From IMG/VR virus record IMGVR_UViG_3300006112_000842, positions 1 to 22,088 of that record: a stretch of 22,088 bases of DNA. One strand, 5' to 3'. The position numbers and the translations under genes were made by a program. Source of the stretch: a virus. The notes under the pieces are model-generated. The model was not told the DNA's origin. It did not search any database and saw only the letters and a list, made by a program, of their open reading frames with translations. Shown here one piece after another: positions 867 through 19,250 of this stretch. Each line of letters starts with the position of its first letter. Within the stretch, counting starts at the first letter, position 1.

Positions 867-2879
867 TTACTTAGAAGTAGCACGATAAGTACCATCCCAA
901 TTGGCTGGAAGACCTTCTTCCAGCCTTTCTAACATATTCTTGTAGTATTGATTCAATTCATTGTTTTCTTCAATCAATTCTTTACAGAGTTTCTTTGCTT
1001 TAGTCCAGTCACCAGAGTAGTAACAATCTAAGTACGTTTGATGTTTATAATTAGGTTTACCTAAAGTAAATATCTTTACACCTTCTGTTTTACCCTTAAC
1101 AGCAATACAATCCAATTCAACAACAGGATATTCGTCCCTCACTTGTTCTGCGGTTAATGTACCAAGGACAATGCGAACTCCATAAGGCTTTGATTGACCT
1201 TCAAGACGAGATGCGAGATTGACTGTATCACCGAGGCAGGTATAGTCAAAACGTTGCTCAGACCCCATATTACCCACAACAACGACCCCGGTGTTAATAC
1301 CCAAACCCATACCAAAAGGTGGAATGCCTTCTTTAGTAATTTCAGTATTGAATTCATCTAAACTCTCCATCATTTGTAATGCAGTTTTAACCGCCATCTT
1401 TGCATGATTAGGTTCATCAACAGGAGCATTCCAAAATGCCATCTGTGCGTCACCAATATATTTGTCTAATGTACCATTGTTTTCTAAAATCTTTTTCGTC
1501 ATAGCAGTCATATAACGATTCATAATCTTAGTTAATCCTTGAACATCTTTTCCATAATGCTCAGAGATTGTAGTGAAACCTCTAACATCGGTGAACATAA
1601 TGGATAATTCTTTTGATTCTCCGCCGAGAGTAAGAAGTTCAGGATTTTTCTGGAGTTTTTCGACCAATGCGGGACTGAGGTATGTTCCGAATTGTTTTTT
1701 GATTTGTTGTTTTTGATACCATTCAGACACAAATTTGACAACATATCCATGTGTGAAGGTAAAAAATATGGTGAAAAGTGGGAAAGTAATATCAATGAGG
1801 TATTGGTATCTATCAAATAGTTCATGACTTCCGAAATAGGTGATTCCTGCCACAAAGAAGATTGCGATGTAACCATGTGTGTACCTTGTAAAAAATAAAG
1901 TTATTAAGCATAATGCAATTGTGTATAATAACTCTCCTCCATCAGCCCAATCAGGCCTGGAGATGTTTGTTCCTGAAATGAGAGTACTTAGTACTGCTGC
2001 TTGAAGATTATGTGGATAGACTGCACCGGTAGCTGTTGCAACGGGGTTATTAAGTCCTTTGGCTGTGAGACCGACAATGACGATGGAATTATTAAAGTTC
2101 TCTGGTAATTTTGATAAAGAATATTCTGTTGGTTTGCTTGACCAATCGACCCAAATTCTACCGACTGCATCTGTGGTGATTTTTCCAAATTTAGGAATTC
2201 TGACCGCTTGTATTCCGTATTCGCCAATTTTAACTTGGAAGCTTGGGTCGCCTGATGCAACTCTGAGGGTTTCAAGACTAATTGAAGGGTATAACAATCC
2301 TTGGGACTGTACGACCATTGGCACACGACGTGTGACGCCATCAATTTCGGGGAAAGTATTAACAATACCAATGCCAGCAGCTGTTTCATTTAAGGCCTTT
2401 ACATTTGGTTGAATTGAATTATAATCTACTCCGGCAAAACCTTCACCAATTACTGAAACACCAGGTCTAAATGGAATAACACTACCTTGTTTGTCATTAG
2501 AACCAGCTTGTGGAAGGATTACTGGATACTTCCTGAATGTGTTAGCCAAAGCATCATCCTGAAAAAACCTATCGTTATCAGGCATATAAACATTAAACAC
2601 AACAAGCCCAGCACCACGTTGATACAAATCTCGGATAATTTTGGCATATTCGCCCCTTGGAAAAGGAAATTGACCTTTTTGTTTTAAAGTTTCATCATCA
2701 ATATTAACAATCACCACATCTTTAGATTGTGTTACTGGTTTACTAGTAATTACAGTATCAAGATATCTGTATTTTACCGATTCAACAAAAGCAGGTTTAT
2801 CAACAAAAACACAAATACATAATGCCATTGTCAATAAAGCTGTCAACGGAGATAATAATAACTTTCTAATTTTTTTCAT
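867..2879 (-). CDS. Transmembrane CHASE2-domain class III adenylate cyclase
   Basis: This 670-residue receptor cyclase is predicted to make cAMP from ATP at the inner membrane. Layout: N-terminal membrane segment (about 7-27), periplasmic CHASE2 sensor domain (about 35-305, with DVVIVNIDDETL and the GIVNTFPEIDGVTRRVP block typical of CHASE2), three membrane segments (about 316-332, 336-350, 358-378), a short linker, and a cytoplasmic class III catalytic domain (about 420-605). All expected catalytic positions are visible: metal-binding Asp431 (FTDVRGF) and Asp477 (YIGD), adenine-selecting Lys473, Thr547 (YTCLGD, the usual bacterial partner), and transition-state Asn554 and Arg558 (VNLASRLE). 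The C-terminal 65 residues look helical, as in many bacterial cyclases of this class. It is the last gene of the curli block, and its start overlaps the 45-residue gene by 14 bases. Its length is full for the family and nothing suggests decay. ATP rather than GTP preference is inferred from Lys473 and Thr547. Confidence 0.93.
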   Translation of the reverse strand: MKKIRKLLLSPLTALLTMALCICVFVDKPAFVESVKYRYLDTVITSKPVTQSKDVVIVNIDDETLKQKGQFPFPRGEYAKIIRDLYQRGAGLVVFNVYMPDNDRFFQDDALANTFRKYPVILPQAGSNDKQGSVIPFRPGVSVIGEGFAGVDYNSIQPNVKALNETAAGIGIVNTFPEIDGVTRRVPMVVQSQGLLYPSISLETLRVASGDPSFQVKIGEYGIQAVRIPKFGKITTDAVGRIWVDWSSKPTEYSLSKLPENFNNSIVIVGLTAKGLNNPVATATGAVYPHNLQAAVLSTLISGTNISRPDWADGGELLYTIALCLITLFFTRYTHGYIAIFFVAGITYFGSHELFDRYQYLIDITFPLFTIFFTFTHGYVVKFVSEWYQKQQIKKQFGTYLSPALVEKLQKNPELLTLGGESKELSIMFTDVRGFTTISEHYGKDVQGLTKIMNRYMTAMTKKILENNGTLDKYIGDAQMAFWNAPVDEPNHAKMAVKTALQMMESLDEFNTEITKEGIPPFGMGLGINTGVVVVGNMGSEQRFDYTCLGDTVNLASRLEGQSKPYGVRIVLGTLTAEQVRDEYPVVELDCIAVKGKTEGVKIFTLGKPNYKHQTYLDCYYSGDWTKAKKLCKELIEENNELNQYYKNMLERLEEGLPANWDGTYRATSK
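903..925 (+). terminator. Hairpin, likely terminator for the + strand, inside the cyclase gene
   Basis: GGCTGGAAG (903-911) and CTTCCAGCC (917-925) form a perfect 9-bp stem. An extra A-T pair (912/916) can close a 3-base loop. The stem is GC-rich in an AT-rich genome, and on the + strand it is followed by TTTCT and further T-rich sequence. It lies 37 bases after the stop of the 669-866 gene but within the last codons of the convergent adenylate cyclase, because no intergenic space exists between the two stops. The T tract is short, so termination efficiency is uncertain. On the - strand no T-run follows. Confidence 0.5.
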
Positions 2880-3003
2880 ATTGTTTTCGTATATTTTTCA
2901 AATCACGCTCTAATTTTAATTCTTCTCTTTTATCGCAAACATATACTATTGCCCATACAAGGCACCAACCAAATACTCCACCAAGAAGTTGAACTATAAT
3001 CAT
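2866..3003 (-). CDS. 45-residue single-span membrane protein with charged helical tail
   Basis: This short gene fills the apparent gap between the PA14-curlin gene and the cyclase. Its ATG (3003-3001) overlaps the upstream stop as ATGA, and it ends in TAG at 2866, 14 bases inside the cyclase gene. The protein begins MIIVQLLGGVFGWCLVWAIV, a hydrophobic segment of about 21 residues. A strongly charged, Lys/Glu/Arg-rich helix with heptad-like spacing follows (residues 24-44). That is the shape of a small bitopic membrane protein with a coiled-coil tail. The double overlap argues for a real, translationally coupled gene. It has no recognisable family. It may assist the cyclase or the FecR protein, but that is a guess from position only. 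Confidence 0.75.
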   Translation of the reverse strand: MIIVQLLGGVFGWCLVWAIVYVCDKREELKLERDLKNIRKQYEKN

Positions 3004-4328
3004 TGGCGTACCGTTACTGTTCCACAAGTAGTTACACAAGTTTGAGTGATGTTATATGTTTGTCCACCAGTTTGTGTTACGTTTACTGAAGCTGGTGCAC
3101 CTGCATTATTTAGAACTATTGTGGCAGCGTTAGCACCAGAAGCACTACTGTTGTTTTGAGTAACTACTGCTGAGTTACCATTACCTGTGGTGGTTATACT
3201 AAGATAATCTTTACTTGTTCCTGTTTGACTAGTAGTAACTGTATTACTATTACCGGTCACACTAGCAAATAATTGTTTTTGTGCATTACCCGTTTGTGTG
3301 ATGCCAACAGTATTCAAATTACCAATAACTACTAAACTAGAAAATTGATTACCTGATACGCCAGTATTTTCTTGTACTACTGTAATATTATTATAACTGC
3401 CATTGATATAATCAAATTGATAGTGTCCGCCTTGGTCTAATCCTGTATAATTTCCATTAACATCTGTACCTTGATTTAAATTAAGTGTGTTGTTTCCACC
3501 AATTGCAGCTAAATCTATTAAATTATTTCCTGTTTTTGCCATAGGATCACCTTGTCGTATGGTAATATTATTACTACCACCAGTAATAGGTGCTGACTGT
3601 TGATAACCTGCTACTCCAGTAGAACTATTATAATTTGCACCATCAATTTTGTTAGCATAACCAACTTGTGTAATGTTAATAACATCACCGTTTCCTGTTT
3701 GATTAATGTAAATACTATTTGATGAAGCAGTAGTAACACCGGACATTCTAGTGACTACTGAAGAAACTTGAGCCGACTGGCCGCCGGTAATTGAACTAGT
3801 ATACTGTGGTGCCGGCATACTGGTATACAAACTTGTGGAAGGAACAACCTGCCAACTATTATTTTGATACCATTGAAAATTGACTAATGCACCGCCACCG
3901 TTTTCATAATACCAAACACTAATTGGAACAGCGCCAGCAGGTAAATTAATACTGCCTTGTCTGAAACTACCACCATCTTCTTGCCAACTATTAATTATAG
4001 TAGTATTATTAATGCTTATAACTAATCCGTCATCTGCATTACCCCCGAATGTATATGTTCCGGCAGTAGGTATATTGATGTATCCAGTAAAATGAATAAT
4101 AACTTGGTCAACACGACCTGATGTTAAAACATAACCACTACCCCAATTGTAATTAATATTACTTACTATACCTGAACTCAATGGATTTGGATATGCCAAG
4201 TTTGTATAATTTGGCGTGGCACCAGTACCAGCATAAGTTACATAATTTAATCCTGATGTTTGTGAATAAGATTTTGGTGCACAAAATCCTAATAATCCAG
4301 CAAGAAGAAATGTGAATAATATTTTCAT
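3000..4328 (-). CDS. Secreted PA14-domain protein with C-terminal curlin-like repeats
   Basis: This 442-residue protein has a Sec signal peptide (cleavage likely after about residue 22, SYS|Q). It continues with a PA14-type beta-sandwich domain (about 50-170, with GTYTFGGNADDGLVISIN at 90-107, carrying the Asp-Asp-Gly motif, and ALVNFQWY at 147-154). A tail of curlin-like repeats runs from about 205 to the end: NSIYINQTGNGDVINITQ, then several N-x-V-x-Q-T-G-N units. PA14 domains usually bind carbohydrates, sometimes through Ca2+ held by the Asp pair. Curlin repeats stack into the cross-beta core of curli. The likely role is a fibre subunit or tip adhesin that shows a glycan-binding head on an amyloid stem, exported through the CsgG encoded upstream. 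Its start shares a base with the FecR stop (TAATG). Two late Cys (in the CVTTC stretch near the C-terminus) could pair. The fusion itself is unusual. Confidence 0.85.
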   Translation of the reverse strand: MKILFTFLLAGLLGFCAPKSYSQTSGLNYVTYAGTGATPNYTNLAYPNPLSSGIVSNINYNWGSGYVLTSGRVDQVIIHFTGYINIPTAGTYTFGGNADDGLVISINNTTIINSWQEDGGSFRQGSINLPAGAVPISVWYYENGGGALVNFQWYQNNSWQVVPSTSLYTSMPAPQYTSSITGGQSAQVSSVVTRMSGVTTASSNSIYINQTGNGDVINITQVGYANKIDGANYNSSTGVAGYQQSAPITGGSNNITIRQGDPMAKTGNNLIDLAAIGGNNTLNLNQGTDVNGNYTGLDQGGHYQFDYINGSYNNITVVQENTGVSGNQFSSLVVIGNLNTVGITQTGNAQKQLFASVTGNSNTVTTSQTGTSKDYLSITTTGNGNSAVVTQNNSSASGANAATIVLNNAGAPASVNVTQTGGQTYNITQTCVTTCGTVTVRQ

Positions 4329-5464
4329 TAGTTTTGTTTGGTGGTTATGAAAGTATTACCACCGGCATTAATGCGGTTAGTAATAGTTACATTACCTGAT
4401 TGTGTTTGACTTACTGTTGCGTTTTGTGTTTTTGGTGTTGTGATACAAGAAGTATTACTACCTGCATCCGACCGACACAACTGAACTGATATAGCATCGA
4501 CTGTGGCCACTACACCTGTTTTAGAATTATAGTCTGGCAATAAACTATTCTTTTGTGGTGCCAATAAATTGCCAAATTCTTGTGATAGTTCTTCATTCAA
4601 TAATTGTAAAACATTTGCAAGAAAGTCTTGGTCTAAAAAATTACGTTGTAAAGCATTGGTATAAATTTGAGAATTTTCTGCTGCCAAGACACTACTTAAA
4701 TCCACACCTTGTAAGAAGTTTTGGCTTAACGCTGTCACCACACCTTGTTTTTCATCTTCACGTTGTTTAATAGCATTTTTAATTTCTTGTGGTGGTGCAA
4801 GAATCAACATATTATTAATACTATCTTCATTTAATTTTATTGTAACAGGTTTTGTGGGCGCCACATTTCTAGCTGTAACTTTAGTGGCTTGAAATGGTTG
4901 GTCTAATGTAACTGAACCGCCATCATTGATTACTTCAATCTTACCTGTTTTACATTCATGTTCAACATCTATTGGATTTTTTGTAGGACAACTAGGTAAT
5001 AAAATTACTGTACTGGCACCTAGTTCATCAACCGTAGCTGTGAAATCAGTACCACGGACAGCCACAGTAGCGGTAGGAGTGTTGATAGCAACTTTATTAG
5101 GATTGTCGTGAGCGATGGCGCCGCTGGCATAACGGACCGTGCCGGCCGCCATATTGAGAGCCAGTTTTCCAGCACCTTTATTTTTTGGATCATAAACGAA
5201 CTCATCAATGACCAATTTAGAATTTTCATTTACTTGTACTTTTGTATTATCGGCAAAAATGATGCCAACCTTACCTTGTTTGGTATTGATGGCATCTTCC
5301 ATTTCGACACCAGTACCTTTGGTGCCGGTTAAAGTTGTTTTAGCTCTTTGTATTGATGCTGGTGTATTCACTTGCTCCGTTATTGTCCCCACCGCTGCTA
5401 ATGTGGGGACTGAGCAAGTCAGCAAAATCAAGAAACTCAGTATTATCAGGATTCTTTTCTTCAT
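4328..5464 (-). CDS. Periplasmic FecR-domain protein with curlin-like C-terminus
   Basis: This 378-residue protein has a clear signal peptide (residues 1-23, ending TLA). A FecR domain follows at about 55-200, recognisable from AINTKQGKVGIIFADNTKVQ, the NMAAGTVRYASG segment and the NTPTATVAVRGTDF core (128-141). In bacteria FecR domains are periplasmic sensors or scaffolds, and FecR-domain proteins often lie next to CHASE2 cyclases. After a helical middle region (about 225-310), the last 35 residues hold curlin-like units (NATVSQTQSGNVTITN, then NTFITTKQ). The protein could therefore touch the curlin subunits directly, as nucleator, anchor or monitor. Cys159/Cys171 and Cys331/Cys340 are possible disulfides. 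The ATG at 5464 is the only in-frame start, since a TGA lies upstream, and it has only a weak SD; translation may be coupled to upstream reading. A function in signal passing to the cyclase is inferred. Confidence 0.87.
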   Translation of the reverse strand: MKKRILIILSFLILLTCSVPTLAAVGTITEQVNTPASIQRAKTTLTGTKGTGVEMEDAINTKQGKVGIIFADNTKVQVNENSKLVIDEFVYDPKNKGAGKLALNMAAGTVRYASGAIAHDNPNKVAINTPTATVAVRGTDFTATVDELGASTVILLPSCPTKNPIDVEHECKTGKIEVINDGGSVTLDQPFQATKVTARNVAPTKPVTIKLNEDSINNMLILAPPQEIKNAIKQREDEKQGVVTALSQNFLQGVDLSSVLAAENSQIYTNALQRNFLDQDFLANVLQLLNEELSQEFGNLLAPQKNSLLPDYNSKTGVVATVDAISVQLCRSDAGSNTSCITTPKTQNATVSQTQSGNVTITNRINAGGNTFITTKQN

Positions 5465-5506
5465 ATTCTTTAATCAGTTCTTTGAGCGTAATCATAGTTT
5501 TTCCAA

Positions 5507-6445
5507 TCAATGTGTTTGATGAATAGTCCAAGTGTTGTTACTGCCACTACTTTGGATATTTGTGGTGTTATTACCTGTTGCAGCACCTTGTGTAACATTA
5601 AATGTATTAGTACTTCCTGTCAAACCAAGAATAAATGTATTATCAGCATTACCTGTTTGTGAAACAGTTACAGAGTTACTAGAACCATTTAACGAACCAC
5701 TTGGTGTTGTAGTAGATCCACTATAACCTCCAACAGTAACAGTATTGCCATTGGTGCCACCATTTTGTGTAATACCAAATGTGTTGCTTGCACCAGTAGA
5801 ATTCAATGTAACAGAACTTGTGGTAGAAGCAGTTGTAGAATTACCTTGATTCAAAGTAAAACTATTTGAACCGCCACCATTCATATTAACAGTATCATTA
5901 TTGCCTGTACCATTAACAGTTGCAACCACACTATTGTTTGTGCCGCCAGCAGTTGTTGCAGTTAGATTGTTTCCTGTTCCTAAAATATTCACATTCAAAT
6001 TAGAGTTGTTACCTGTTTGAGTTACATTAACATTGTTGCTTGCACTTGTTCCAGAACCATCATTGTTACTATTGATGACAGCAGTAGAGTTGCTACCTGT
6101 AATAGAATAACTATAATTGTTACCATTTGAAATACCATTCGCAACAGTAGTCTGAATACCTAGTTGTAAAGTATCACCTGTACCAACTTGATTAACAGTA
6201 ACTTGATTGCTATTGCCATTGATTACTGCCGGCGTAGTTGCACTTGAACCAGTAGTCTGAACTCCTTCTACGGCATTACCTGCACCATTTTGTGTTACAC
6301 CAATAGTCGAATTGCTTCCTGACTGATTGATATAAATGGTATTATCTCCGGCTACTGCCAGTCCCGACAACAGCATTACAGCTGTCATTAGAATTGCGGA
6401 TAATTTTCTCGACAATCCGCCAGCGCCTTTTAAGCTCTTTTTCAT
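5507..6445 (-). CDS. Curlin-repeat protein, likely major fibre subunit (CsgA/CsgB-like)
   Basis: This 312-residue secreted protein has a signal peptide (residues 1-32, AVA followed by GDN). Low-complexity sequence rich in Asn, Gly, Thr, Ser and Gln follows, with repeated curlin-like units: NSTIGVTQNGAGNAVEGVQ, NSNQVTVNQVGTGD, NNVNVTQTGN, NTFGITQNGG, NSVTVSQTGN and a final NNTWTIHQ. The pattern N/S-x5-Q-x-G-x-x-N matches the strand-turn-strand unit of CsgA and CsgB. It is about twice as long as E. coli CsgA, so more or longer stacked turns are expected. It sits directly after csgG with a 9-base gap and a strong SD (AAGGA). It probably forms extracellular amyloid once exported through CsgG. Whether it acts as CsgA, CsgB or both cannot be decided from sequence. 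Asn/Thr-rich composition alone could mimic other beta-helical proteins, but the csgF-csgG context supports curlin. Confidence 0.87.
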   Translation of the reverse strand: MKKSLKGAGGLSRKLSAILMTAVMLLSGLAVAGDNTIYINQSGSNSTIGVTQNGAGNAVEGVQTTGSSATTPAVINGNSNQVTVNQVGTGDTLQLGIQTTVANGISNGNNYSYSITGSNSTAVINSNNDGSGTSASNNVNVTQTGNNSNLNVNILGTGNNLTATTAGGTNNSVVATVNGTGNNDTVNMNGGGSNSFTLNQGNSTTASTTSSVTLNSTGASNTFGITQNGGTNGNTVTVGGYSGSTTTPSGSLNGSSNSVTVSQTGNADNTFILGLTGSTNTFNVTQGAATGNNTTNIQSSGSNNTWTIHQTH

Positions 6446-6454
6446 TTCTTTTCC

Positions 6455-7426
6455 TTATTGTTTTACTACTCCCATCTTGGCTGCCACATCCGCTGGCGTG
6501 TCTTTTTTACTAGACATACCCAATGGAATACTCGGCGTTGCTGAGATGGTTGGATTAGGTTGTGCTTCCATGATTGTACCATAATCCCAAACACCTTTTC
6601 TTTGTCCTTCTTTAATTAATTCAACCACACTTGCTTCAATTGTTGTCTTTAATGCTATAGTTGTTGCCTCATTGATTGTCAAACCAGATTCAAACTGAAA
6701 GATGGCCGCAGTTGGACTTACCGACCCATTGTTGGGTGCACCAATCTGTGATATCATACTTCCTATTCCACCTGGTTCGATACTTTTAAAAATTGCTATA
6801 GCATCTGCTGTACTATAAACAATCTTTGTAACTGTTACAGTTGCCAATACTTTACCTGTATTAACTGATATTGCTCTTAAACTAACAGTAATAATATCTT
6901 TACTGTATTGTGTTGTTGGACCAATACCTAAAAAGTTATAACCTAATCCGCCTGATTCTAAACCTGTATCGTAACCAATAATACCACCTTCAAGTATAAT
7001 ACCAGCAAAAGTTAAAGGCATTAATTTTTGTGCTTGCGGACCTTCATATGCTTGTCGCATCTGTGTAATGATTAAACGTTCTTTAGTAAGAGCATCAATG
7101 TTACCACGCTCAACTACATCAAACCATCTACCATGACCAACATCTTGTAATGAACGAATCAATAAGGCATCAGCACCTTGTGTAACTGCGGTACTAAATG
7201 ATGCGATACCAGGAATAGCTTTACGTTGTCCTGTTTTATCTGTGAATTGATAAACTGCTACAACCAATCTGCCTTTAGATGGTGGTGGAATTTCATCGAA
7301 CTCTTTTTGTAATTTGTTCTCTAATACTTTTGGCTCATGTTCAACGCCAACCATTTGGCCGGCTTTTTGTGAAATAGCACAACCAGAAAGAATAAGAACT
7401 GATAGTATTAACAATAATTTTTTCAT
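6455..7426 (-). CDS. csgG: CsgG-family outer-membrane curli secretion pore lipoprotein
   Basis: This 323-residue lipoprotein has a lipobox LSGC with Cys16 as the lipid anchor. Along its length it shows the CsgG pattern: RLVVAVYQFTDKTGQ (53-67), the constriction-loop region ending FSTAVTQGADALL (77-89), WFDVVERGNIDAL (101-113), the membrane hairpin region around GGIIGYDTGLESGGLGYNF (147-165), and RKGVWDY near 276-282. CsgG forms a nine-fold outer-membrane beta-barrel pore that exports unfolded curlins. In E. coli the constriction is made by Tyr51, Asn55 and Phe56 of the mature protein. Here the aligned positions read Ile71, Ser76 and Phe77, with one extra residue in the loop. About 40 more C-terminal residues than E. 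coli CsgG are present. Its start overlaps csgF by ATGA. No csgE-like adaptor was found in the window. Confidence 0.95.
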   Translation of the reverse strand: MKKLLLILSVLILSGCAISQKAGQMVGVEHEPKVLENKLQKEFDEIPPPSKGRLVVAVYQFTDKTGQRKAIPGIASFSTAVTQGADALLIRSLQDVGHGRWFDVVERGNIDALTKERLIITQMRQAYEGPQAQKLMPLTFAGIILEGGIIGYDTGLESGGLGYNFLGIGPTTQYSKDIITVSLRAISVNTGKVLATVTVTKIVYSTADAIAIFKSIEPGGIGSMISQIGAPNNGSVSPTAAIFQFESGLTINEATTIALKTTIEASVVELIKEGQRKGVWDYGTIMEAQPNPTISATPSIPLGMSSKKDTPADVAAKMGVVKQ

Positions 7427-7890
7427 GGACCACTTCCTGTAATATTAAATGAGCCAAGTGGCACATTAATTGTGGTCATATTACCGACATTATCGGTTAC
7501 TTGTAATTGAATATTTGTACCTGTATTAGTCCAAAATATTGTGTTACCTTGAAAGTTCATTTGACCTGAAGTAGATGAACCACCAGCAAACATGGCAGTT
7601 GCCAAGTTCTGTGAAATTTGAGCGTAAATACGGGATTCTAAGTTTGTTAGAAATTGATTGATTGGTGTATTGGCGGCATCTGCTTTTGCTTGTTGCTTTG
7701 CAGCTTCCATAGCTTGAAGAATAGCCTGTGAACGAGCATATTGCTCATTTTCCAATGCCATTTGAAATGCGCCGTACCCATTACCATTTAAAGAAGGACT
7801 CTTAAACTGATAATCAGCAATAGTTGTAGCAAAAGCGGAACTACTTAATAACGCTAGAACTAGACTTTTTAGTATCTTGTTTATCTTCAT
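7423..7890 (-). CDS. csgF: CsgF-family curli assembly protein
   Basis: This 155-residue secreted protein has a signal peptide (residues 1-21, SSSAFA). The mature N-terminus TTIADYQFKSPSLNGNGYGAF aligns with the conserved F-Q-F-x-x-P-x-F-G-G-N-x-x-x-G-A segment of E. coli CsgF. That segment sits inside the CsgG barrel and forms a second constriction. The C-terminal part (NIQLQVTDNVGNMTTINVPLGS) matches the CsgF end that carries N-x-Q-L-x-V-T-D and a final Thr/Ile-rich strand. CsgF couples the pore to extracellular nucleation of the fibre. The gene start lies 50 bases inside the preceding membrane-protein gene, a long overlap, but no later Met could keep the signal peptide. It overlaps csgG by 4 bases, so the pair is probably made in step. 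Confidence 0.92.
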   Translation of the reverse strand: MKINKILKSLVLALLSSSAFATTIADYQFKSPSLNGNGYGAFQMALENEQYARSQAILQAMEAAKQQAKADAANTPINQFLTNLESRIYAQISQNLATAMFAGGSSTSGQMNFQGNTIFWTNTGTNIQLQVTDNVGNMTTINVPLGSFNITGSGP

Positions 7891-8122
7891 CCTTAATTTC
7901 CCGTAACATCAATACGATGTTTAGCTTTTGATTCAATCTAATCAAATCATTATCTAACATCCTGACACGGTCAATCAAAGCAATCAAAACATTACTTGCT
8001 TCACTTAAAACAGGCTTAATTTCTTGTGTTGCCCATTTCCACACATAAAATATAAGGTAACCCATGCCGCCTGCGGCAACAATAGGAAAACCATACTTAT
8101 TAACTAATTCTACTGGATCCAT
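7841..8122 (-). CDS. Small membrane protein, GFPI type, paralogue of the gene at 8301-8579
   Basis: This 93-residue protein has one membrane span near the N-terminus (about residues 10-30, after the motif KYGFPI). A helical, partly charged region follows (IALIDRVRMLDNDLIRLNQK) and then a polar Lys/Ser tail. It aligns without gaps to the upstream 92-residue protein: GFPI, GY, F, K, ALxxRV, D and IR occupy the same positions. A short N-terminal span behind a GFPI motif followed by a coiled-coil tail recalls BhlA/UviB-type small holin-like proteins, but this resemblance is weak. Its ATG shares a base with the stop of the 58-residue gene (TAATG), and its end overlaps csgF by 50 bases. It could help open or stabilise the membrane for the curli system, or be a lysis protein; neither is shown. 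Confidence 0.8.
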   Translation of the reverse strand: MDPVELVNKYGFPIVAAGGMGYLIFYVWKWATQEIKPVLSEASNVLIALIDRVRMLDNDLIRLNQKLNIVLMLREIKDEDKQDTKKSSSSVIK

Positions 8123-8298
8123 TATACTTCTTCTTTGTATTTTTGTTTAGCAATTTTCATAAAACTAGAAGAACACTTCATAATTTGTAATGCTAACTCA
8201 CTATCGATATCGAGCAATTGAGTGGCAGCCAAACGAGCCGCATCATCAAAATTGATGGCGATATCTTCTAAATCATCCAATTCTTTATATAATGGCAT
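8122..8298 (-). CDS. 58-residue acidic helical protein, function unknown
   Basis: This short gene lies between the two paralogous membrane-protein genes. The ATG (8298-8296) is preceded by AAAGGA at the end of the upstream gene, and the stop (8124-8122) overlaps the next start as TAATG. The product is soluble and helix-rich (YKELDDLEDIAINFDDAARL, then an ALQIMKCSSSFMKIAKQKYK helix), acidic at the N-terminal half and basic at the C-terminus, with no signal peptide. I recognise no family. Its tight packing within the operon and good SD support a real gene. Confidence 0.75.
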   Translation of the reverse strand: MPLYKELDDLEDIAINFDDAARLAATQLLDIDSELALQIMKCSSSFMKIAKQKYKEEV

Positions 8299-8300
8299 AA

Positions 8301-8579
8301 TTAGTCCTTTCGAGCATCATTTTTGCCGTCTGCACGAGCAATACGGTCGGTGTCAGGTTTAACTCCTAATGCGCTTGACATTAGAGTATCAATTCTGATA
8401 ACATCATGATTCATGGTTTTAACACGATTGTCTAAAGCAGTAATAATACCACTTAAAGACTTCACAGAAGAAGTGACTCCTGCCAGAATAAATTTCAAGG
8501 TCAGGAATACAAAATAACCGGCAGCCATCGCTGCGGCAATTGGAAAGCCAAGTTCGGCAACTAATTTAAAAAAATCCAT
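8301..8579 (-). CDS. Small membrane protein, GFPI type, first gene of the curli block
   Basis: This 92-residue protein has one N-terminal membrane span (about 10-32, beginning ELGFPIAAAMAAGY). A helical region follows (GIITALDNRVKTMNHDVIRID) and then a charged tail rich in Asp, Lys and Arg. It is a clear paralogue of the 7841-8122 product, so this pair arose by duplication with the 58-residue gene now between them. It is the first coding sequence after the TATAAATA late promoter element (leader about 60 bases). The SD is weak (ACAAAAATGG). Holin-like topology (short N-terminal tail, one span, amphipathic cytoplasmic or periplasmic helix) is visible, but function is unproven; a link to curli export rests on position. 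Confidence 0.8.
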   Translation of the reverse strand: MDFFKLVAELGFPIAAAMAAGYFVFLTLKFILAGVTSSVKSLSGIITALDNRVKTMNHDVIRIDTLMSSALGVKPDTDRIARADGKNDARKD

Positions 8580-8586
8580 TTTTGTA

Positions 8587-8615
8587 TTGACAATCGTTGG
8601 TTAATCGTATATAAT
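8587..8615 (+). promoter_or_regulatory. Consensus sigma70 promoter for the replication block
   Basis: TTGACA at 8587-8592 and TATAAT at 8610-8615 are both perfect consensus hexamers with the ideal 17-bp spacer. Transcription would start near 8622 and run right into the Sm-like gene (start 8675, SD AGGAGA), then gp43 and onward. A fully consensus promoter is what a phage needs to seize host RNA polymerase early. The leader of about 50 bases contains the late promoter element of the opposite strand. Confidence 0.85.
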
Positions 8616-8644
8616 CACCAAAGCATCAATATAAGTAACAAGTA

Positions 8645-8652
8645 TATTTATA
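8645..8652 (-). promoter_or_regulatory. T4-type late promoter element for the curli/cyclase block
   Basis: On the - strand this reads TATAAATA, the exact T4 late promoter -10 element used with the gp55 sigma factor. It lies about 65 bases upstream of the first gene of the minus-strand block and points into it. T4 late promoters need no -35. The eight bases could occur by chance in AT-rich DNA, but the position in the only intergenic gap before a ten-gene minus-strand block supports a role. Confidence 0.7.
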
Positions 8653-8674
8653 CCAATTTTATTAGGAGAAAATA

Positions 8675-8986
8675 ATGGACATTAAAGTATTGAAATTAAC
8701 GACCGGAGAAGAGGTTTTGAGTGAAATTGAATCGGAATCTGAGACCGAATATGTATTGAGTAATCCAGTTGGTATTGCTGTAGTTCGTGGTAAAGATGGT
8801 CAACCTAGTGTTGGACTGGCCCCATTCCCGCTTCATGCTGAACAAAAGAAAGATGCCACTATTGCCATTTCTAAGCGTAGTGTAGTATACTCCTATGTTC
8901 CTGCTGAAGATTTTATTAGTAATTATAAACAAATCTTTGGTGCTGGTATTATCGTTCCTCCACAAAAATCATTGATTACAGGCTAA
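8675..8986 (+). CDS. Small Sm-like fold phage protein (tentative)
   Basis: This 103-residue soluble protein opens with IKVLKLTTGEEVLSEIE, a strand-turn-strand pattern with a T-G-E-E turn. That pattern is common in small Sm-like domain proteins of T4-like aquatic phages. A conserved-looking APFPLHAE stretch follows, then a SKRSVVYSYVPAEDFISNY end. Sm-like folds often bind RNA or act as small beta-barrel adaptors; here the role is unknown. The ATG at 675 bases into the 8 kb region has a strong SD (AGGAGA, 8664-8669). It is the first gene after the consensus sigma70 promoter and lies one base before the polymerase start, so it is likely made early and together with gp43. Confidence 0.8.
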   Translation: MDIKVLKLTTGEEVLSEIESESETEYVLSNPVGIAVVRGKDGQPSVGLAPFPLHAEQKKDATIAISKRSVVYSYVPAEDFISNYKQIFGAGIIVPPQKSLITG

Positions 8987-8987
8987 A

Positions 8988-11528
8988 TTGAGCAATTTCT
9001 ATACTAATGTACAAAGTTTCGGTAACAGTATTCTCTATCGAGGCATTCGTGATGGTCAGGTAGTGAGGGAGAAAGTTGATTATTCTCCTTCATTATATCT
9101 TCCTTCTCGTAAAAACCCACAAGGTGTTTATTCTTCATTAGATGGTCTACCACTTGACCAAAAAGTCTTTGGTGACCTTCGTGCTGCTAGAGACTACATC
9201 AAGCAATTTGATGGAGTGCCAGGTTCTCCAGTAATCTATGGTCAAACACGATTTGAATATGCTTATATCGCTGAACAACATCGTGGCATGGTCGACTATG
9301 ATTATGATAAGGTTCAGATTGCCGTAATCGATATTGAGGTTGGTTCAGAGAATGGATTTCCTGACCCATACAAAGCAAACGAACCAATCACCGCTATCTG
9401 TATCAAATTTCTAAATCAAACTCCTTTTGTATTTGCCTGTGGTGAGTATGAAGTACAAGGTAATGAAGTTTATGTTCGTTGTAAAGATGAGTATTCTCTT
9501 TGCAAACAATTCATGGCATTTTGGAAAGACAAGTATCCTGATATCATTACAGGATGGAATACAAAGTTTTTTGATATACCTTATCTCATCAATCGATTTC
9601 GTAAAATTCTTGGCGAACCAGAAACTAAGAAGTTGTCACCTTGGAATTTTATTTCTGAAAGAAAGACTATAATCAATGGCCGAGAGATGATTGCTTATGG
9701 TCTACTTGGCGTTGAATCACTAGACTACATCGAACTATACAAATGGTATGCTCCTGGCGGTAAGTCACAAGAGAGTTATCGTCTTGATGCTATTGCACAG
9801 GTAGAACTTGGTGAAGGCAAAATCTCTTATGATGAATATGATAACCTACACGCATTGTATCGTTTGAACTTTCAAAAGTTTATTGAGTATAACATCAAAG
9901 ACGTTGAACTCATTATCAAATTAGAAGATAAGTTGAAACTGCTTGAACTGGCAGTAACTCTTGCTTATGACACCAAGACAAACTTTGAAGATGTCTTTGC
10001 TCAAACTCGTATGTGGGATTCTTTGACTTATGCTTACTTGTATGAGAAGAATATCATTGTACCGCCTCGTATCACTAAACACAAAGATGGTATGTTTGAA
10101 GGTGCTTATGTTAAAGAGGTTCAAGTAGGCAAGCATGATTGGGTGGCATCGTTTGACTTGAATAGTTTGTATCCTCACTTGATGATGCAATATAATATTA
10201 GTCCTGAAACTCTGATTGAACCTGAAGATTACACAGATGAAATGCGTGACATTCTGGAACAAGGCGTTGATGTTAATAAGATGTTGGCCAAGAAAGTTGA
10301 TTTAACAAGACTTAAAGGTGCAACACTAACTCCTAATGGCCAATTCTTTTCTACTGTCAAACAAGGTTTCTTACCTAAGATGATGGAAGAAATGTATACA
10401 GACCGTAAGAAGTTTAAGAACATGATGTTGGCCGCAAAGCAAGAATATGAAAATGAAACTGACGAATCTAAAAAGTATGAAATTGAAAAACGTATTGCAA
10501 AATATAATAACATCCAGTTGGCAAAGAAAGTATCACTTAATTCTGCTTACGGCGCTCTTGGCTCTCAGTATTTCAGATTTTATGATTTGCGTATGGCTCT
10601 TGGTGTTACGACCGCTGGCCAGTTAAGTATTCGTTGGATTGAAGCTAAACTTAATGAGTGGATGAACAGGATATTAAAAAGTGAGAAAGATTATGTTATT
10701 GCGTCAGATACAGATTCGATTTATCTCAACCTTGGTCCATTGGTTGATAGCATTGTTAAAACAAAGACTGAAACTTCAAAAGTTATCTCCATCATGGACC
10801 GTATATGTGAAGATAAAATTCAACCTTTTATTGACAAAAGTTATCAGGAGCTTGCAGAGTATGTTTGTGCATATGCTCAAAAGATGGAAATGAAACGTGA
10901 AGGTCTTTCTAATGTAGGAATTTGGACTGCAAAGAAAAGATATATTCTGAATGTGTATAATAATGAAGGTGTGCAATACAAAGAACCACAACTCAAAGTC
11001 ATGGGTCTTGAAATGGTTAAATCTTCAACACCATCTGTCATTCGTGTTAAGATGTATGATTTGATTAAACTTCTTGTAACCGGTACAGAAGATGATGTAC
11101 ACAAATTTATTGAGGACTTTAAAGAAGAATTCAAGGCATTACCACCAGAAGATATTTCTTCACCAAGAGGCTGTAATGGTTTGGCTAAATATTATGATTC
11201 GGTGACATTGTATAAACTTGGTACTCCAATTCATGTTAAGGGTGCCATTCTTTATAATCATTATCTCAAAGAAAAAGGACTAACCAAAAAGTATCCTTTG
11301 ATTCAAGAAGGTGAGAAGTTAAAGTATAGTTATCTTAAAACACCAAATCATTTTAAGAATACCGTTATTTCTTTTCCTGGTAGATTACCAAAAGAGTTTG
11401 GGCTTGACAATTATATCGATTATGATTTACAATTTGAAAAGTCATTTATTGAACCCATCAAAGTCATTCTTGATTGTATGGGCTGGACAACAGAGAAAAT
11501 AAGCAGTCTGGAGGATTTCTTCTCATGA
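8988..11528 (+). CDS. 43: T4-like family B DNA polymerase gp43
   Basis: This 846-residue replicative DNA polymerase has 3'-5' proofreading exonuclease. Exonuclease motifs are visible: Exo I VIDIEV (Asp115, Glu117), Exo II NTKFFDIPYL (Asp196) and Exo III YNIKDVELI (Asp305). Polymerase motif A is FDLNSLYP (389-396, Asp390), motif B is KVSLNSAYG (Lys514, Asn518, Tyr521) and motif C is ASDTDSIY (Asp574, Asp576). The C-terminus ILDCMGWTTEKISSLEDFFS resembles the T4 gp43 tail that docks on the sliding clamp gp45. The start is TTG at 8988: the resulting N-terminus SNFYTNVQSFGNSILYRGI aligns with the T4 N-terminus FYISIETVGNNIVER, so a later ATG would remove conserved sequence. It is slightly shorter than T4 gp43 (898). 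It is intact, with no intein or split as seen in some T4-like phages. Confidence 0.97.
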   Translation: MSNFYTNVQSFGNSILYRGIRDGQVVREKVDYSPSLYLPSRKNPQGVYSSLDGLPLDQKVFGDLRAARDYIKQFDGVPGSPVIYGQTRFEYAYIAEQHRGMVDYDYDKVQIAVIDIEVGSENGFPDPYKANEPITAICIKFLNQTPFVFACGEYEVQGNEVYVRCKDEYSLCKQFMAFWKDKYPDIITGWNTKFFDIPYLINRFRKILGEPETKKLSPWNFISERKTIINGREMIAYGLLGVESLDYIELYKWYAPGGKSQESYRLDAIAQVELGEGKISYDEYDNLHALYRLNFQKFIEYNIKDVELIIKLEDKLKLLELAVTLAYDTKTNFEDVFAQTRMWDSLTYAYLYEKNIIVPPRITKHKDGMFEGAYVKEVQVGKHDWVASFDLNSLYPHLMMQYNISPETLIEPEDYTDEMRDILEQGVDVNKMLAKKVDLTRLKGATLTPNGQFFSTVKQGFLPKMMEEMYTDRKKFKNMMLAAKQEYENETDESKKYEIEKRIAKYNNIQLAKKVSLNSAYGALGSQYFRFYDLRMALGVTTAGQLSIRWIEAKLNEWMNRILKSEKDYVIASDTDSIYLNLGPLVDSIVKTKTETSKVISIMDRICEDKIQPFIDKSYQELAEYVCAYAQKMEMKREGLSNVGIWTAKKRYILNVYNNEGVQYKEPQLKVMGLEMVKSSTPSVIRVKMYDLIKLLVTGTEDDVHKFIEDFKEEFKALPPEDISSPRGCNGLAKYYDSVTLYKLGTPIHVKGAILYNHYLKEKGLTKKYPLIQEGEKLKYSYLKTPNHFKNTVISFPGRLPKEFGLDNYIDYDLQFEKSFIEPIKVILDCMGWTTEKISSLEDFFS

Positions 11529-12445
11529 TTTACTTAACATTTTTATGTGCCTTGGCATTATCTGGTATTGCTGCCTACTATTCGGTAATCGGATTGGCAG
11601 CAATCTTTACTGGTGCGTTTTGGCCAATCGTCTTTATGGGCGGAGTTCTTGAAGCCAGTAAACTGGTTACTGCATCATGGTTATATCGTAATTGGAAGAC
11701 CTGCCCACTTTTATTGAAAACATACTTGACAACCGCAGTGATTGTTTTGATGATGATTACTAGTATGGGTATTTTTGGTTTCTTGGCCAAAGCACATATT
11801 GATTCCACACTTGATGCGGGCGCCAATAATGTAGAAGTCAAAACATTAAATCAACAAGAGAAAATTACCAAAGATAGATTAGATTATTTGTTGGCACGAG
11901 CCAAAGATCCATCAACGGCAAACAATCGACTTGATAAACAAATTCAAGATACTCAAAAAGAATTAACCGAAATCAGTAAGAAAAAATTACCATTATTAAA
12001 AGAATCTAATAAACTTGTGGCAGAAGTAGGTCCTATTAAGTATGTTGGTGATTTGGTATATGGTAGTGATGACGATAATGCTTTAGACAAAGCAGTTCGT
12101 TTGGTAATCATGTTGATTATGGTTGTATTTGACCCGCTAGCTGTGTTATTATTGATAGCAGCAAATATGTCATTGAAGCCACCACCTGGAAAACCCATCG
12201 TAAAAGATGGTGAAATTACTGGTTTAACGGCAAGTGACATACCAGTATTTACTGAAACTAAACCTGACGATAAAATTGAAGTTGAAAAAGAAAACATTGC
12301 CGAGTTTGAAAAGGCACAGCCAATTGTATTAGATGAAGCATCAGGTGAAACTATGCCTCCATTATCAGCAGGAGTTAGAACTAAAGTCTTAGAACCTAAG
12401 TATGATTACAATGCTGAATTTGCATTTCGTGAAAAAGGAAAATAA
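11525..12445 (+). CDS. Four-span membrane protein with central coiled coil, function unknown
   Basis: This 306-residue protein has three membrane segments near the N-terminus (about 2-24, 30-50, 67-88), a charged coiled-coil region (about 105-165) and a fourth span (about 191-213, LVIMLIMVVFDPLAVLLLIA). A soluble acidic, proline-containing tail follows. The start is taken at ATG 11525 because it overlaps the gp43 stop as ATGA and has GGAGG upstream (11511-11515); an earlier in-frame start at 11474 would lie deep in gp43. Conserved-looking blocks are GGVLEASKLVTASWLYRNWK and the FDPLAVLL span. Sitting between gp43 and uvsX, it may tether replication or recombination to the inner membrane, but I know of no proven function. 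Confidence 0.85.
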   Translation: MIYLTFLCALALSGIAAYYSVIGLAAIFTGAFWPIVFMGGVLEASKLVTASWLYRNWKTCPLLLKTYLTTAVIVLMMITSMGIFGFLAKAHIDSTLDAGANNVEVKTLNQQEKITKDRLDYLLARAKDPSTANNRLDKQIQDTQKELTEISKKKLPLLKESNKLVAEVGPIKYVGDLVYGSDDDNALDKAVRLVIMLIMVVFDPLAVLLLIAANMSLKPPPGKPIVKDGEITGLTASDIPVFTETKPDDKIEVEKENIAEFEKAQPIVLDEASGETMPPLSAGVRTKVLEPKYDYNAEFAFREKGK

Positions 12446-13525
12446 ATGAGTATACTTGACAAAATTAAAAAGAATAGTAGTATTAAAGATTCGGCTATTC
12501 TATCTAAATCAAAATTCTTTACAAACAAAGATATGATTCCAACCTCGGTGCCCATTATCAATGTGGCACTTTCTGGTAAATTAGATGGCGGTTTAACACC
12601 AGGTCTTACAATGTGGGCAGGCCCATCAAAACACTTTAAGACTGCTTTCTCACTTTTGATGGCAAAATCTTACTTGGACAAATACGAAGATGCTGCTTTA
12701 TTATTTTATGATAGCGAGTTTGGTACTCCTCAGTCTTATTTTGATTCCTTTGGAATCGATACTAATCGTGTTCTGCACACTCCTCTTACTGATATTGAGC
12801 AATTAAAGTTTGATGTGATGCAACAACTCACCAATCTTGAACGTGGTGAACATTTGATTATTGTAATTGATTCAATTGGTAATTTAGCATCAAAAAAAGA
12901 AGTCGATGATGCACTTGATGGCAAATCTGTTGCCGATATGTCAAGAGCAAAACAAGTTAAATCATTATTCCGAATGATTACACCACACTTATCACTTAAA
13001 GATATTCCAATGATTGTTGTCAATCATACTTACAAAGAAATCGGAATGTTCCCTAAAGATATCGTTGGTGGTGGTACAGGTTCATATTATTCTGCCGATA
13101 ATATTTTTATTATTGGTCGTCAACAAGAGAAAGAAGGTACAGAAATTGTTGGATATAATTTTATCATTAATGTCGAAAAGTCTCGATATGTTAAAGAGAA
13201 GTCTAAGATTCCGGTCACCGTTCGTCATGATGGTGGTATTAGCCGTTGGAGTGGGTTACTTGACATCGCTCTTGATTCAGGTCATGTCATCAAACCATCC
13301 AACGGTTGGTACTCTAAGGTGGATACGGAATCTGGCGTTATAGAAGATAAGAAATACCGTATCAAAGAAACTGATACATCAGAATTCTGGTTACCAATTC
13401 TTAAACAGAAATCTTTCCAACAATATGTACAAGACAAATACCAAATTGCAACAGGTGGTATTATCAAAGAAGAAGTAGAACAAGCATTTGAAGTGGAGAC
13501 TACTAACGGAGTAGAAGATGATTGA
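12446..13525 (+). CDS. uvsX: UvsX, RecA-like strand-exchange recombinase
   Basis: This 359-residue T4-type RecA homologue forms a filament on single-stranded DNA and drives recombination-dependent replication and repair. Walker A is GPSKHFKT (59-66) and the catalytic glutamate region is FYDSEFG (Glu91). Walker B is LIIVIDSIGNL with Asp142, directly followed by ASKKEVDDAL as in T4. DMSRAKQVKSLFR, the VNHTY segment and GGGTGSYYSAD are L1/L2-region matches, and VEKSRYVKEKSKIP is near-identical to T4 UvsX. The ATG follows directly on the previous stop; a GGAA-type SD lies at 12437-12440. Length is close to T4 UvsX (391), with a shorter acidic C-terminal tail. Confidence 0.97.
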   Translation: MSILDKIKKNSSIKDSAILSKSKFFTNKDMIPTSVPIINVALSGKLDGGLTPGLTMWAGPSKHFKTAFSLLMAKSYLDKYEDAALLFYDSEFGTPQSYFDSFGIDTNRVLHTPLTDIEQLKFDVMQQLTNLERGEHLIIVIDSIGNLASKKEVDDALDGKSVADMSRAKQVKSLFRMITPHLSLKDIPMIVVNHTYKEIGMFPKDIVGGGTGSYYSADNIFIIGRQQEKEGTEIVGYNFIINVEKSRYVKEKSKIPVTVRHDGGISRWSGLLDIALDSGHVIKPSNGWYSKVDTESGVIEDKKYRIKETDTSEFWLPILKQKSFQQYVQDKYQIATGGIIKEEVEQAFEVETTNGVEDD

Positions 13526-13838
13526 AGGCGTTGATTACTGTTATATTTACCCAAAAGAAGATGCCGCTTCGGTACACATTAAATTTTTAGAAGGTCCGTA
13601 CAAAGGCACTCTTTACAAATATGGTAGAGTTAAGTTTGAAGAAAAAGGTGATGAGGTCCATTTACTTTTTGCTTACGATGTGTTAGAATCACCAATCGAT
13701 AAGCCAAAGAAGTTAGAAAAGGATGAAACCTTTAAGAATTACATTGGTGATTTATTGGTAGAAATTATGAGTAGTAATATTGAACAGGAAGTATACGATG
13801 AAGCTGGAACAAGCGATATTAAAGAATCTGATTTATAA
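13518..13838 (+). CDS. Small acidic protein between uvsX and gene 41, unknown function
   Basis: This 106-residue soluble protein begins 8 bases before the uvsX stop and extends 41 bases into gene 41. The N-terminal half looks like a small beta-barrel (VHIKFLEGPYKGTLYKYGRVKFEE, several alternating strands, reminiscent of KOW/SH3-like folds). The C-terminal half is acidic and helical. No family is recognised with confidence. Its fixed position between the recombinase and the replicative helicase suggests a helper in replication, perhaps helicase or recombinase loading, but nothing in the sequence proves it. Confidence 0.8.
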   Translation: MIEGVDYCYIYPKEDAASVHIKFLEGPYKGTLYKYGRVKFEEKGDEVHLLFAYDVLESPIDKPKKLEKDETFKNYIGDLLVEIMSSNIEQEVYDEAGTSDIKESDL

Positions 13839-15183
13839 TGAAGATTATTTAAGAAAAGTATTACCGTTTTTAAAATCTGATTATTTCTCCGACAGAACGG
13901 AGAGGACATTATTCAATGAAATTACATCATTCACGGAAACTTACAATTCTCCACCATCGGTTGAGGCAATTAGTATTGCCGTCAAAGAAAAGAGTACTCT
14001 TACATCTGACGAAGTTGAGGGATGCGAAACTTATCTCAAAGAAATTGAGGCAAATAGCAAAGCAGAAACCGAAGTTCAATGGCTTGTTGACAAAACCGAA
14101 AAGTTCTGCCAAGAGAAGGCGATTTATAATGGTGTACTACGGGCTATTTCAATTCTCGATGGCAAAGATAAAAATCAGGACAAAGGTGCGATTCCCTCTA
14201 TATTATCGGACGCCTTGGCCGTTTCATTCGATACCACAGTAGGTCACGATTATCTCGAAAACTCCGATGAACGATATGAGTTCTATCATCGCAAAGAAGA
14301 AAGAATCCCCTTTGATTTGGAATATTTTAATAAAATCACTAAAGGTGGTTTACCTGCTAAGACTCTTAATATTGCTCTTGCTGGCACCGGTGTTGGGAAG
14401 TCTTTGTTCATGTGCCATGTTGCTTCTAGCTGTATGGTTCTTGGTAAAAACGTATTGTATATCACTTTGGAAATGGCTGAAGAAAAGATTGCTGAAAGAA
14501 TAGATGCAAATCTTTTGAATGTATCTTTGGATGATTTGATGGATTTACCAAAAGATATGTATGATAAGAAAGTTGCTCGGGTTAAAGAAAAGACAACAGG
14601 CAAACTTATCATCAAAGAATACCCAACCGCATCGGCTTCTGTAACTCATTTTAGGACATTATTAAATGAACTTAATCTTAAACGCAGTTTTGTACCTGAT
14701 ATCATCTTTGTTGATTATCTTAACATCTGTTGTTCTAGCCGTATCAAGGCTGGTGCAAATATTAATTCCTACACATATGTTAAATCGATTGCTGAAGAAC
14801 TTAGAGGACTGGCAGTCGAGTATAACGTACCAATTGTTTCCGCAACTCAAACGACACGAAGCGGATTCACATCATCCGATCCAGGACTAGAAGATACTTC
14901 TGAATCTTTTGGACTTCCTGCTACTGCCGATTTGATGTTTGCTTTGATTTCTTCCGAAGAATTAGAAGAACTCGGACAGATTATGGTAAAGCAATTGAAG
15001 AATCGATACAATGATCCATCTTATTACAAACGATTTGCAATTGGTGTCGATAGATCCAAAATGAAATTGTATGATGTGGAACAATCTGCACAACAAGGTA
15101 TTGCTGATGCCGGTACTGCACCTGTTGGCGCATTTAACAAAATTCAACCACAGAAAAAATCATTTGACGGATTTAAAGTATGA
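13798..15183 (+). CDS. 41: gp41, DnaB-like replicative helicase
   Basis: This 461-residue hexameric 5'-3' helicase unwinds the fork and works with a primase (gp61 in T4). Its N-terminal helical domain aligns with T4 gp41 (ILKNLIYNEDYLRKVLPFLK). The RecA-like domain has Walker A AGTGVGKS (195-202), ITLEMAEE (catalytic Glu225), Walker B DIIFVDYLN (Asp306), SYTYVKSIAEELRGLA and SATQTTRSG, and a C-terminal KNRYNDPS block, all as in T4. The start is placed at ATG 13798 with SD AGGAAG at 13786-13791. A TTG at 13780 in frame would add six residues but has a poorer site. It overlaps the preceding small gene by 41 bases and the next gene by ATGA. Confidence 0.97.
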   Translation: MKLEQAILKNLIYNEDYLRKVLPFLKSDYFSDRTERTLFNEITSFTETYNSPPSVEAISIAVKEKSTLTSDEVEGCETYLKEIEANSKAETEVQWLVDKTEKFCQEKAIYNGVLRAISILDGKDKNQDKGAIPSILSDALAVSFDTTVGHDYLENSDERYEFYHRKEERIPFDLEYFNKITKGGLPAKTLNIALAGTGVGKSLFMCHVASSCMVLGKNVLYITLEMAEEKIAERIDANLLNVSLDDLMDLPKDMYDKKVARVKEKTTGKLIIKEYPTASASVTHFRTLLNELNLKRSFVPDIIFVDYLNICCSSRIKAGANINSYTYVKSIAEELRGLAVEYNVPIVSATQTTRSGFTSSDPGLEDTSESFGLPATADLMFALISSEELEELGQIMVKQLKNRYNDPSYYKRFAIGVDRSKMKLYDVEQSAQQGIADAGTAPVGAFNKIQPQKKSFDGFKV

Positions 15184-16289
15184 TATTAACTAGAGAACAA
15201 GCACTACATTGTTCCAAAGTATTCCACGATTACTTTAGTAATATTGGAAGTACCGAAGAATATATGCGTGATGAGAAGATAAAAAACCTTGAAGATTTAC
15301 CTTCTTCATTGTTTCCACCAGAAGATGATTTGTTTTCTGATTTCTCGGTACATCCAAAAGATATGGATATTGAAGTTTGTGAAATACCAAATGCTCAGTT
15401 TGAAACATTGCTTGCCATTACCAGTTCCCACATCAATAAGGCACCAGTTGGTAAGAATATACAATTGGCTGTCAAAGAGAAGAACTCAGGAAAGATTCTA
15501 GGTTTCATTCGGTTAGGTTCACCAGTAATCTATATGAAACCTCGAAATGAACTCTTAGGACAGGTCTGGATTCAGCAGGAGGATACTGCCAAACGATTCA
15601 ATACTGCTTGTGTTATGGGTTTTGTAATTGTACCAAGTCAACCATTCGGTTTTAATTATCTAGGTGGTAAACTTCTATCTGCCATTTGTACCAGTCATAC
15701 TGTAAGAGAAATGTGCAATAAGAAATATGGTATGAATGTATGTCTATTTGAAACTACCAGTCTATACGGAAGTACCAAGTCAGTATCACAGTATGATGGC
15801 ATTAAACCATATATTCGTTTTCGTGGCTTGACTGAATCGGATATTGTGCCAATGATGCACGGTGGACGATATCATGATTTGAAAAATTATGTGGAGAATA
15901 TTACTGGAGATTTGTTGGCAGGTGATACATCAACTACCAGTAGAAAACTAAGAACTTTTACTAAAATTATTGCTTTAACTAAAGCAGCACTTAAAGGTAC
16001 ACCTGAAGGGGAGGCATTCTCTTTAACGATTGAGAACGCCAAAAAGTTGACAGAAAAGAAAAGATATTATACTTCAGATTATGGATTTAAGAATTCCGTT
16101 GATTACATGAATTGCAAAACCGATACTTTGATTCCAGGTGAAAACTATCAAAAACATGAATTAAACAACATCGTTGAGTGGTGGAAGCAGAAGGCAACAA
16201 ATCGATATGAAACACTTAAAGCAGAAGGTCGCCTCCGTACAACAGTTGAAGTCTGGACTAATGATACAAACATTGACATCATCCGGTAG
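15180..16289 (+). CDS. DruA/DUF4338-like protein (tentative)
   Basis: This 369-residue soluble protein overlaps gp41 by ATGA. The middle section recalls the DUF4338 domain named after DruA of the Druantia defence system: KILGFIRLGSPVIYMKPRNE (105-124; family pattern LVGF-x-x-F-G-S-P-x-x-x-x-x-x-R-D), then RFN at 139-141 and FVIVPSQP, then NYLGGKLLSAI (159-169; the nLas-iLs helix), then KYGMNVCLFETTSLYGSTK (182-200; the 'YG-P-LLETFVD-x-x-x-G-T' block). The C-terminal part is basic and helical. DruA-type proteins are thought to act on DNA, though their biochemistry is not something I can confirm. In a phage replication operon it is more likely a DNA-metabolism protein than a defence protein. 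The match is by eye, so certainty is limited. Confidence 0.8.
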   Translation: MILTREQALHCSKVFHDYFSNIGSTEEYMRDEKIKNLEDLPSSLFPPEDDLFSDFSVHPKDMDIEVCEIPNAQFETLLAITSSHINKAPVGKNIQLAVKEKNSGKILGFIRLGSPVIYMKPRNELLGQVWIQQEDTAKRFNTACVMGFVIVPSQPFGFNYLGGKLLSAICTSHTVREMCNKKYGMNVCLFETTSLYGSTKSVSQYDGIKPYIRFRGLTESDIVPMMHGGRYHDLKNYVENITGDLLAGDTSTTSRKLRTFTKIIALTKAALKGTPEGEAFSLTIENAKKLTEKKRYYTSDYGFKNSVDYMNCKTDTLIPGENYQKHELNNIVEWWKQKATNRYETLKAEGRLRTTVEVWTNDTNIDIIR

Positions 16290-16300
16290 GTGTGTATAAT
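16273..16300 (+). promoter_or_regulatory. Consensus sigma70 promoter before the 16330 gene
   Basis: TTGACA (16273-16278) and TATAAT (16295-16300) are both perfect consensus hexamers with a 16-bp spacer. The -35 lies inside the last codons of the DruA-like gene, and transcription would begin near 16307 in the 40-base gap. An AATAAATA (16298-16305) overlaps the -10 and resembles the T4 late element with one mismatch, so the site might serve both programmes. Confidence 0.75.
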
Positions 16301-16329
16301 AAATACTCCTTAACAAAATGGAGATTTAC

Positions 16330-17415: not shown

Positions 17416-17424
17416 AGGTGAAAT

Positions 17425-17703: not shown

Positions 17704-17705
17704 TT

Positions 17706-19249: not shown

Positions 19250-19250
19250 T

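Follow-up and report, generated by a model that had tools for sequence, protein, structure and literature searches.

Two promoters of different temporal classes that face each other across a gap of only about 95 bp raise the question of whether their opposition acts as a regulatory switch or whether two separately timed promoters have been packed tightly between two operons. Such a pair lies in the sequence analyzed here (the window, 22,088 nucleotides), a fragment of an uncultured T4-like aquatic phage (IMG/VR record IMGVR_UViG_3300006112_000842). The entire window is matched at 99.87% identity by a 56-kb contig (G001), which also carries clamp loader and sliding clamp (gp45) genes. No match was obtained in a megablast search of the window against annotated phages or in a tblastn search of the phrog_527 protein against phages. 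The left arm of the window (867-8579) is transcribed leftward and contains a curli-related gene block, which in G001 is the sole long gene stretch on its strand, while the right arm (8675-22084) is transcribed rightward and contains phrog_527, DNA polymerase, UvsX-like recombinase, DnaB-like helicase, and other genes. The main genes on the two sides of the gap are as follows.

867..6445, minus strand: remainder of the curli block, encoding curlin-repeat, FecR, PA14, and CHASE2-cyclase proteins (domain assignments)
6455..7426, minus strand: CsgG (PF03783; homologues in Melnitz and HTVC008M)
7423..7890, minus strand: CsgF (PF10614)
8301..8579, minus strand: phrog_18771 small hydrophobic protein, first gene of the curli arm (65% identical in Melnitz)
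8664..8669, plus strand: Shine-Dalgarno-like AGGAGA of the right gene (sequence)
8675..8986, plus strand: phrog_527 small protein, first gene of the replication arm (phrog_527 assignment)
8988..11528, plus strand: DNA polymerase, T4 gp43-like (phrog_262)

The curli arm thus opens with a gene starting at 8579 (minus strand) and the replication arm with one starting at 8675 (plus strand). Two phrog_18771 small hydrophobic proteins are encoded nearly in tandem directly before CsgF (7841-8122 and 8301-8579, minus strand), and a gene of this family lies beside csgF/csgG in many phages, where its product could be a holin-like partner. In contrast to the clear AGGAGA before phrog_527, no Shine-Dalgarno sequence is visible before the first phrog_18771 gene at 8577-8600 (minus strand), nor in several relatives.

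The initial annotation had described a perfect TTGACA-17-TATAAT promoter reading rightward into the replication genes, and this element is present exactly as described, with its -35 and -10 hexamers conserved in relatives.

8587..8615, plus strand: consensus sigma70-type early promoter, TTGACA-17-TATAAT, with a predicted start at about 8622 (sequence; -35 and -10 conserved in relatives)

The -35 hexamer occupies 8587-8592 and the -10 hexamer 8610-8615, so that the consensus boxes, a spacer within 16-18 bp, and a position 5' of early genes are all found together. Full-consensus sigma70 pairs are above chance in the window (two observed against 0.09 expected), whereas weaker promoter-like sites occur at chance level (86 against 79.8). 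The second full-consensus promoter, TTGACA-16-TATAAT at 16273-16305 (plus strand), runs straight into ATAAATA (TATAATAAATA) before a gene at 16318. In four related loci (L089, L028, L030, and L038), phrog_527 is separated from the promoter by a tRNA gene, so the early transcript would begin with a tRNA there; in the window itself, neither the Rfam scan nor the tRNA scan gave a match. Two further loci (L237 and L244) have face-to-face sigma70/late pairs directly 5' of DNA polymerase, with no phrog_527 called between.

Opposite this promoter lies a T4-type late element. Promoters of this type consist of TATAAATA, with a variable first base, about one helical turn 5' of the start, and need no -35 element (PMC2988020, PMC1524935). 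The box is exact at 8645-8652 on the minus strand, reading toward the curli block and separated from the early TATAAT by exactly 29 bases (8616-8644), as had been claimed; its start was placed from the published position of the late box, -13 to -6 (PMC1524935).

8645..8652, minus strand: T4-type late promoter TATAAATA (-13 to -6), predicted start 8639, leftward into the curli block (box exact; conserved at divergent gaps only)
8622..8639: predicted overlap of the two transcripts, about 18 nt (starts estimated from promoter geometry)

A single TATAAATA in the window is no more than chance would provide (one observed against 2.74 expected), and the significance of the box therefore rests on its conservation in relatives. 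A sigma70 reading of the same spot on the minus strand (TTGGTA-17-TATATT) was rejected, as its spacing is not preserved among relatives. Regarding the claim that the two transcripts cross, the face-to-face order is confirmed, and the crossing itself stands as a prediction of about 18 nt from estimated starts near 8622 (plus) and 8639 (minus). Polymerase footprints at the pair should overlap by far more than this, but such an overlap is nearly forced by a gap of only about 95 bp and alone gives no sign of selection.

The use of the late motif across the lineage is consistent with this identification. Intergenic ATAAATA lies almost exclusively on the dominant gene strand in long relatives (10:0 in G008, 7:0 in G009, 15:1 in G007, and 16:1 in G002), where it stands ahead of genes for the tail sheath, head scaffold, tube cap, and Hsp20, that is, in sense orientation 5' of late genes across the lineage. 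The gp55 gene is present in eight of ten long contigs and gp33 in seven of ten; neither was found in G001, a 56-kb fragment. Judged by these sequence patterns, T4-type late promoters are used by this lineage, and both promoter identities in the initial annotation, early sigma70 and late T4-type, agree with the exact boxes, their conservation in relatives, and the sense-oriented ATAAATA before virion genes.

The comparison of the gap in related phages that had been suggested was carried out on 80 fetched relatives of each flanking gene, the gap 5' of phrog_527 being examined after deduplication. Loci numbered from L203 upward had been retrieved by searching for the face-to-face pattern, and they entered the counts only where their contig was already in the set. 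The division into divergent and codirectional gaps was made partly by hand, as the simple gene caller took false overlapping minus-strand ORFs in some loci, and codirectional loci (e.g., L014, L016, L037, L043, and L071) were reassigned through conserved plus-strand reading frames. Both promoters proved to be conserved. Of the 44 divergent gaps, 39 contain the minus-oriented core TATTTAT, for which shuffled sequences gave a mean of 5.4 and at most 11; the count rises to 43 if TATTTAG is also accepted. The core is found in none of the 11 gaps where the neighbour 5' of phrog_527 is codirectional; the plus-oriented late core is absent from all 44 divergent gaps. Its occurrence in divergent but never in codirectional gaps indicates that the late element serves the leftward gene rather than forming part of the rightward mRNA. 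Among the deduplicated divergent junctions, which are homologous and not independent, 35 are face-to-face and six back-to-back. In the latter (L117, L119, L130, L116, and L036, with L070 doubtful), the late element lies left of the -35 at the homologous junction, so that in these five or six clusters the transcripts would diverge without crossing. A phrog_527 tree (103 columns) is too poorly resolved for counting gains and losses, or for correcting the Fisher value of the divergent/codirectional contrast, which takes no account of relatedness. It scatters the five back-to-back cases, and its supported branches provide only three independent pairs relating motif presence to divergence, all of which agree.

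The late element is not confined to this junction. In distinct phrog_18771 upstream regions that face phrog_527, it stands in sense orientation in 22 of 24 and in antisense in none, and among 42 upstream regions not facing phrog_527, some of which are distant paralogue hits, it is sense in 25 and antisense in five. In the cultured phage Melnitz, phrog_18771 is preceded by GATAAATA at a distance of about 62 nt, and in HTVC008M a terminator upstream of the curli cassette is followed by TATAAATA. By its position in these sequences, the element is linked to the phrog_18771-csgF-csgG cassette in other genome contexts as well, Melnitz included. Since it precedes the cassette at other loci, the curli block is probably expressed late, independently of this junction, and since the cassette has its own late element where it does not oppose the polymerase operon, late timing would need no opposing early promoter. 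The proposed timing of early replication and late curli expression is therefore likely, with an early box before the replication arm and a late element accompanying the curli cassette elsewhere. A pelagiphage infection transcriptome covers other phages and contains no curli genes.

These observations favor a tight packing of two separately timed promoters over a dedicated collision switch, with a probability of roughly 0.7, the crossing of transcripts not being needed for timing. Early in infection, host sigma70 polymerase would read the early promoter rightward through phrog_527, DNA polymerase, and the replication genes. At a later stage, polymerase with gp55, together with gp33 and the gp45 clamp, would read the late promoter leftward through the phrog_18771-csgF-csgG block, the available sigma factor being the main determinant of timing. 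The promoters would stand nose to nose because the gap is only about 95 bp and each lies close to the gene that it does not drive. With overlapping footprints, each promoter may mildly suppress the other, so that mutual occlusion, which is physically plausible, would be a by-product or a minor sharpener. As a counterpoint, the face-to-face majority among these homologous, non-independent junctions exceeds what indifferent placement would give.

The interference switch proposed initially, in which late transcription would silence the early promoter, early transcription would keep the late one off, and the crossing would sharpen the transition, is unlikely. Convergent promoters are known to interfere with one another, as in phage 186 (PMC7708051, PMC6593788), the face-to-face order with overlapping footprints has been kept over much divergence, and in curli-bearing phages the spacing hardly varies and the stretch between the promoters includes a conserved block. 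Against this, five or six clusters show the back-to-back order at the homologous junction, and the distance between early and late boxes ranges from 0 to 55 bp across groups, with no predicted transcript overlap at 10 bp. Probable late control of the curli genes is also present without an opposing early promoter in Melnitz, HTVC008M, and other contigs, while face-to-face pairs also occur at junctions whose left gene is unrelated and non-curli. In IMG/VR at large, among the matches listed, which derive mostly from unrelated phages, face-to-face pairs fall at divergent gaps in 34 of 104 cases and back-to-back pairs in 41 of 114, giving no excess of the face-to-face order. Crossing as an early-to-late switch is thus unsupported as the main mechanism, given the back-to-back relatives, the non-curli junctions, and the late element of the cassette elsewhere.

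The conserved block bears on a narrower possibility, limited to the curli-bearing phages.

8625..8644, between the promoters: inter-promoter block ATCAATATAAGTATCAATAC, conserved in curli-bearing relatives (identity 0.89; alignment A1)

In 16 sequences with 34-bp spacing, block identity is 0.89, whereas the -35/-10 spacer reaches 0.61 and the third codon positions of the gene next to it 0.66. A spacing of 33-36 bp is seen in 22 sequences and is nearly constant in most curli-bearing relatives. Block and near-fixed spacing may indicate that the geometry in curli phages is more than packing. A selected switch module is conceivable on this basis but quite doubtful: the block of about 20 bp and the opposed boxes 33-36 bp apart would make polymerase occupancy mutually exclusive or bind a regulator, and late firing for the curli pore/lysis block would shut off the replication operon. 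It is distinctly improbable that the block, as a regulator-binding site or a shared initially transcribed region, actively chooses the promoter in these phages. Its high identity and constant spacing, its position between the two predicted start sites, and its restriction to this junction in the six sequences scanned would suit such a function; yet it is missing from back-to-back junctions and from Melnitz, and the second half of the window's own copy has diverged and is 5-6 bp shorter, which leaves 29 bp between the boxes. Neither leader folds better than shuffled sequences, no Rfam match was found, and the conservation may merely reflect preferences of initially transcribed regions. Finally, a reading of TATTTATA as part of the rightward early mRNA leader rather than as a leftward late promoter is very improbable: although most face-to-face loci have it 11-38 nt 5' of the start of the right gene, it is absent from all 11 codirectional gaps 5' of the same gene, falls outside the rightward transcript in back-to-back relatives, and recurs elsewhere with its orientation relative to phrog_18771 unchanged.

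The favored arrangement of two tightly packed, separately timed promoters has partial parallels in known systems. As in T4, the 8-bp late box is identical, sense-oriented copies precede virion genes, and homologues of gp55, gp33, and gp45 occur in relatives or in the twin contig; unlike T4 late promoters, the box here lies opposite a sigma70 early promoter within a single gap, before a curli-pore cassette. T4 late transcripts can have either polarity, and several T4 sites are read from both strands, with the two directions active at different times (PMC2988020); early and late transcription in opposite directions is thus already familiar in this group. In RB49 and S-PM2, which lack MotA/AsiA, early sigma70 and late boxes are reported to overlap 5' of the same genes and give a middle mode of expression (PMC2984593). 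The present pair likewise combines both elements in one short region, but they point in opposite directions instead of driving one gene, and it is the promoter at 16273-16305 that resembles the tandem early/late overlap described for these two phages. With phages 186 and P2, the locus shares two opposing phage promoters and the potential for transcriptional interference (PMC7708051); those, however, are repressor-based bistable lytic/lysogenic switches of temperate phages, whereas two sigma factors and no repressor are involved in this T4-like phage. The gene content recalls pelagimyophages and the Methylophilales phage Melnitz, in which CsgF, CsgG, curlin-repeat, FecR, and cyclase genes also follow phrog_18771 homologues (PMC7029224, PMC9004378), but the curli block of Melnitz and HTVC008M is codirectional with gp32/gp59-type genes, while here it is inverted and lies opposite the polymerase operon.

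No description of this opposed promoter pair was found in the literature searched, which does not prove its absence; if true, interference would be a device for sharpening the early-to-late transition that is undescribed in the T4-like literature searched. With the late box, a usable motif for late promoters becomes available in relatives of a group where prediction of middle and late promoters reportedly failed (PMC7029224). Proposed roles of curli pore genes in aquatic phages include uptake, sibling capture, and lysis timing (PMC7029224, PMC9004378). The presence of a late promoter with the cassette in many genome contexts would place it in the late programme, a placement that fits a role in lysis or release better than early modification of the host.
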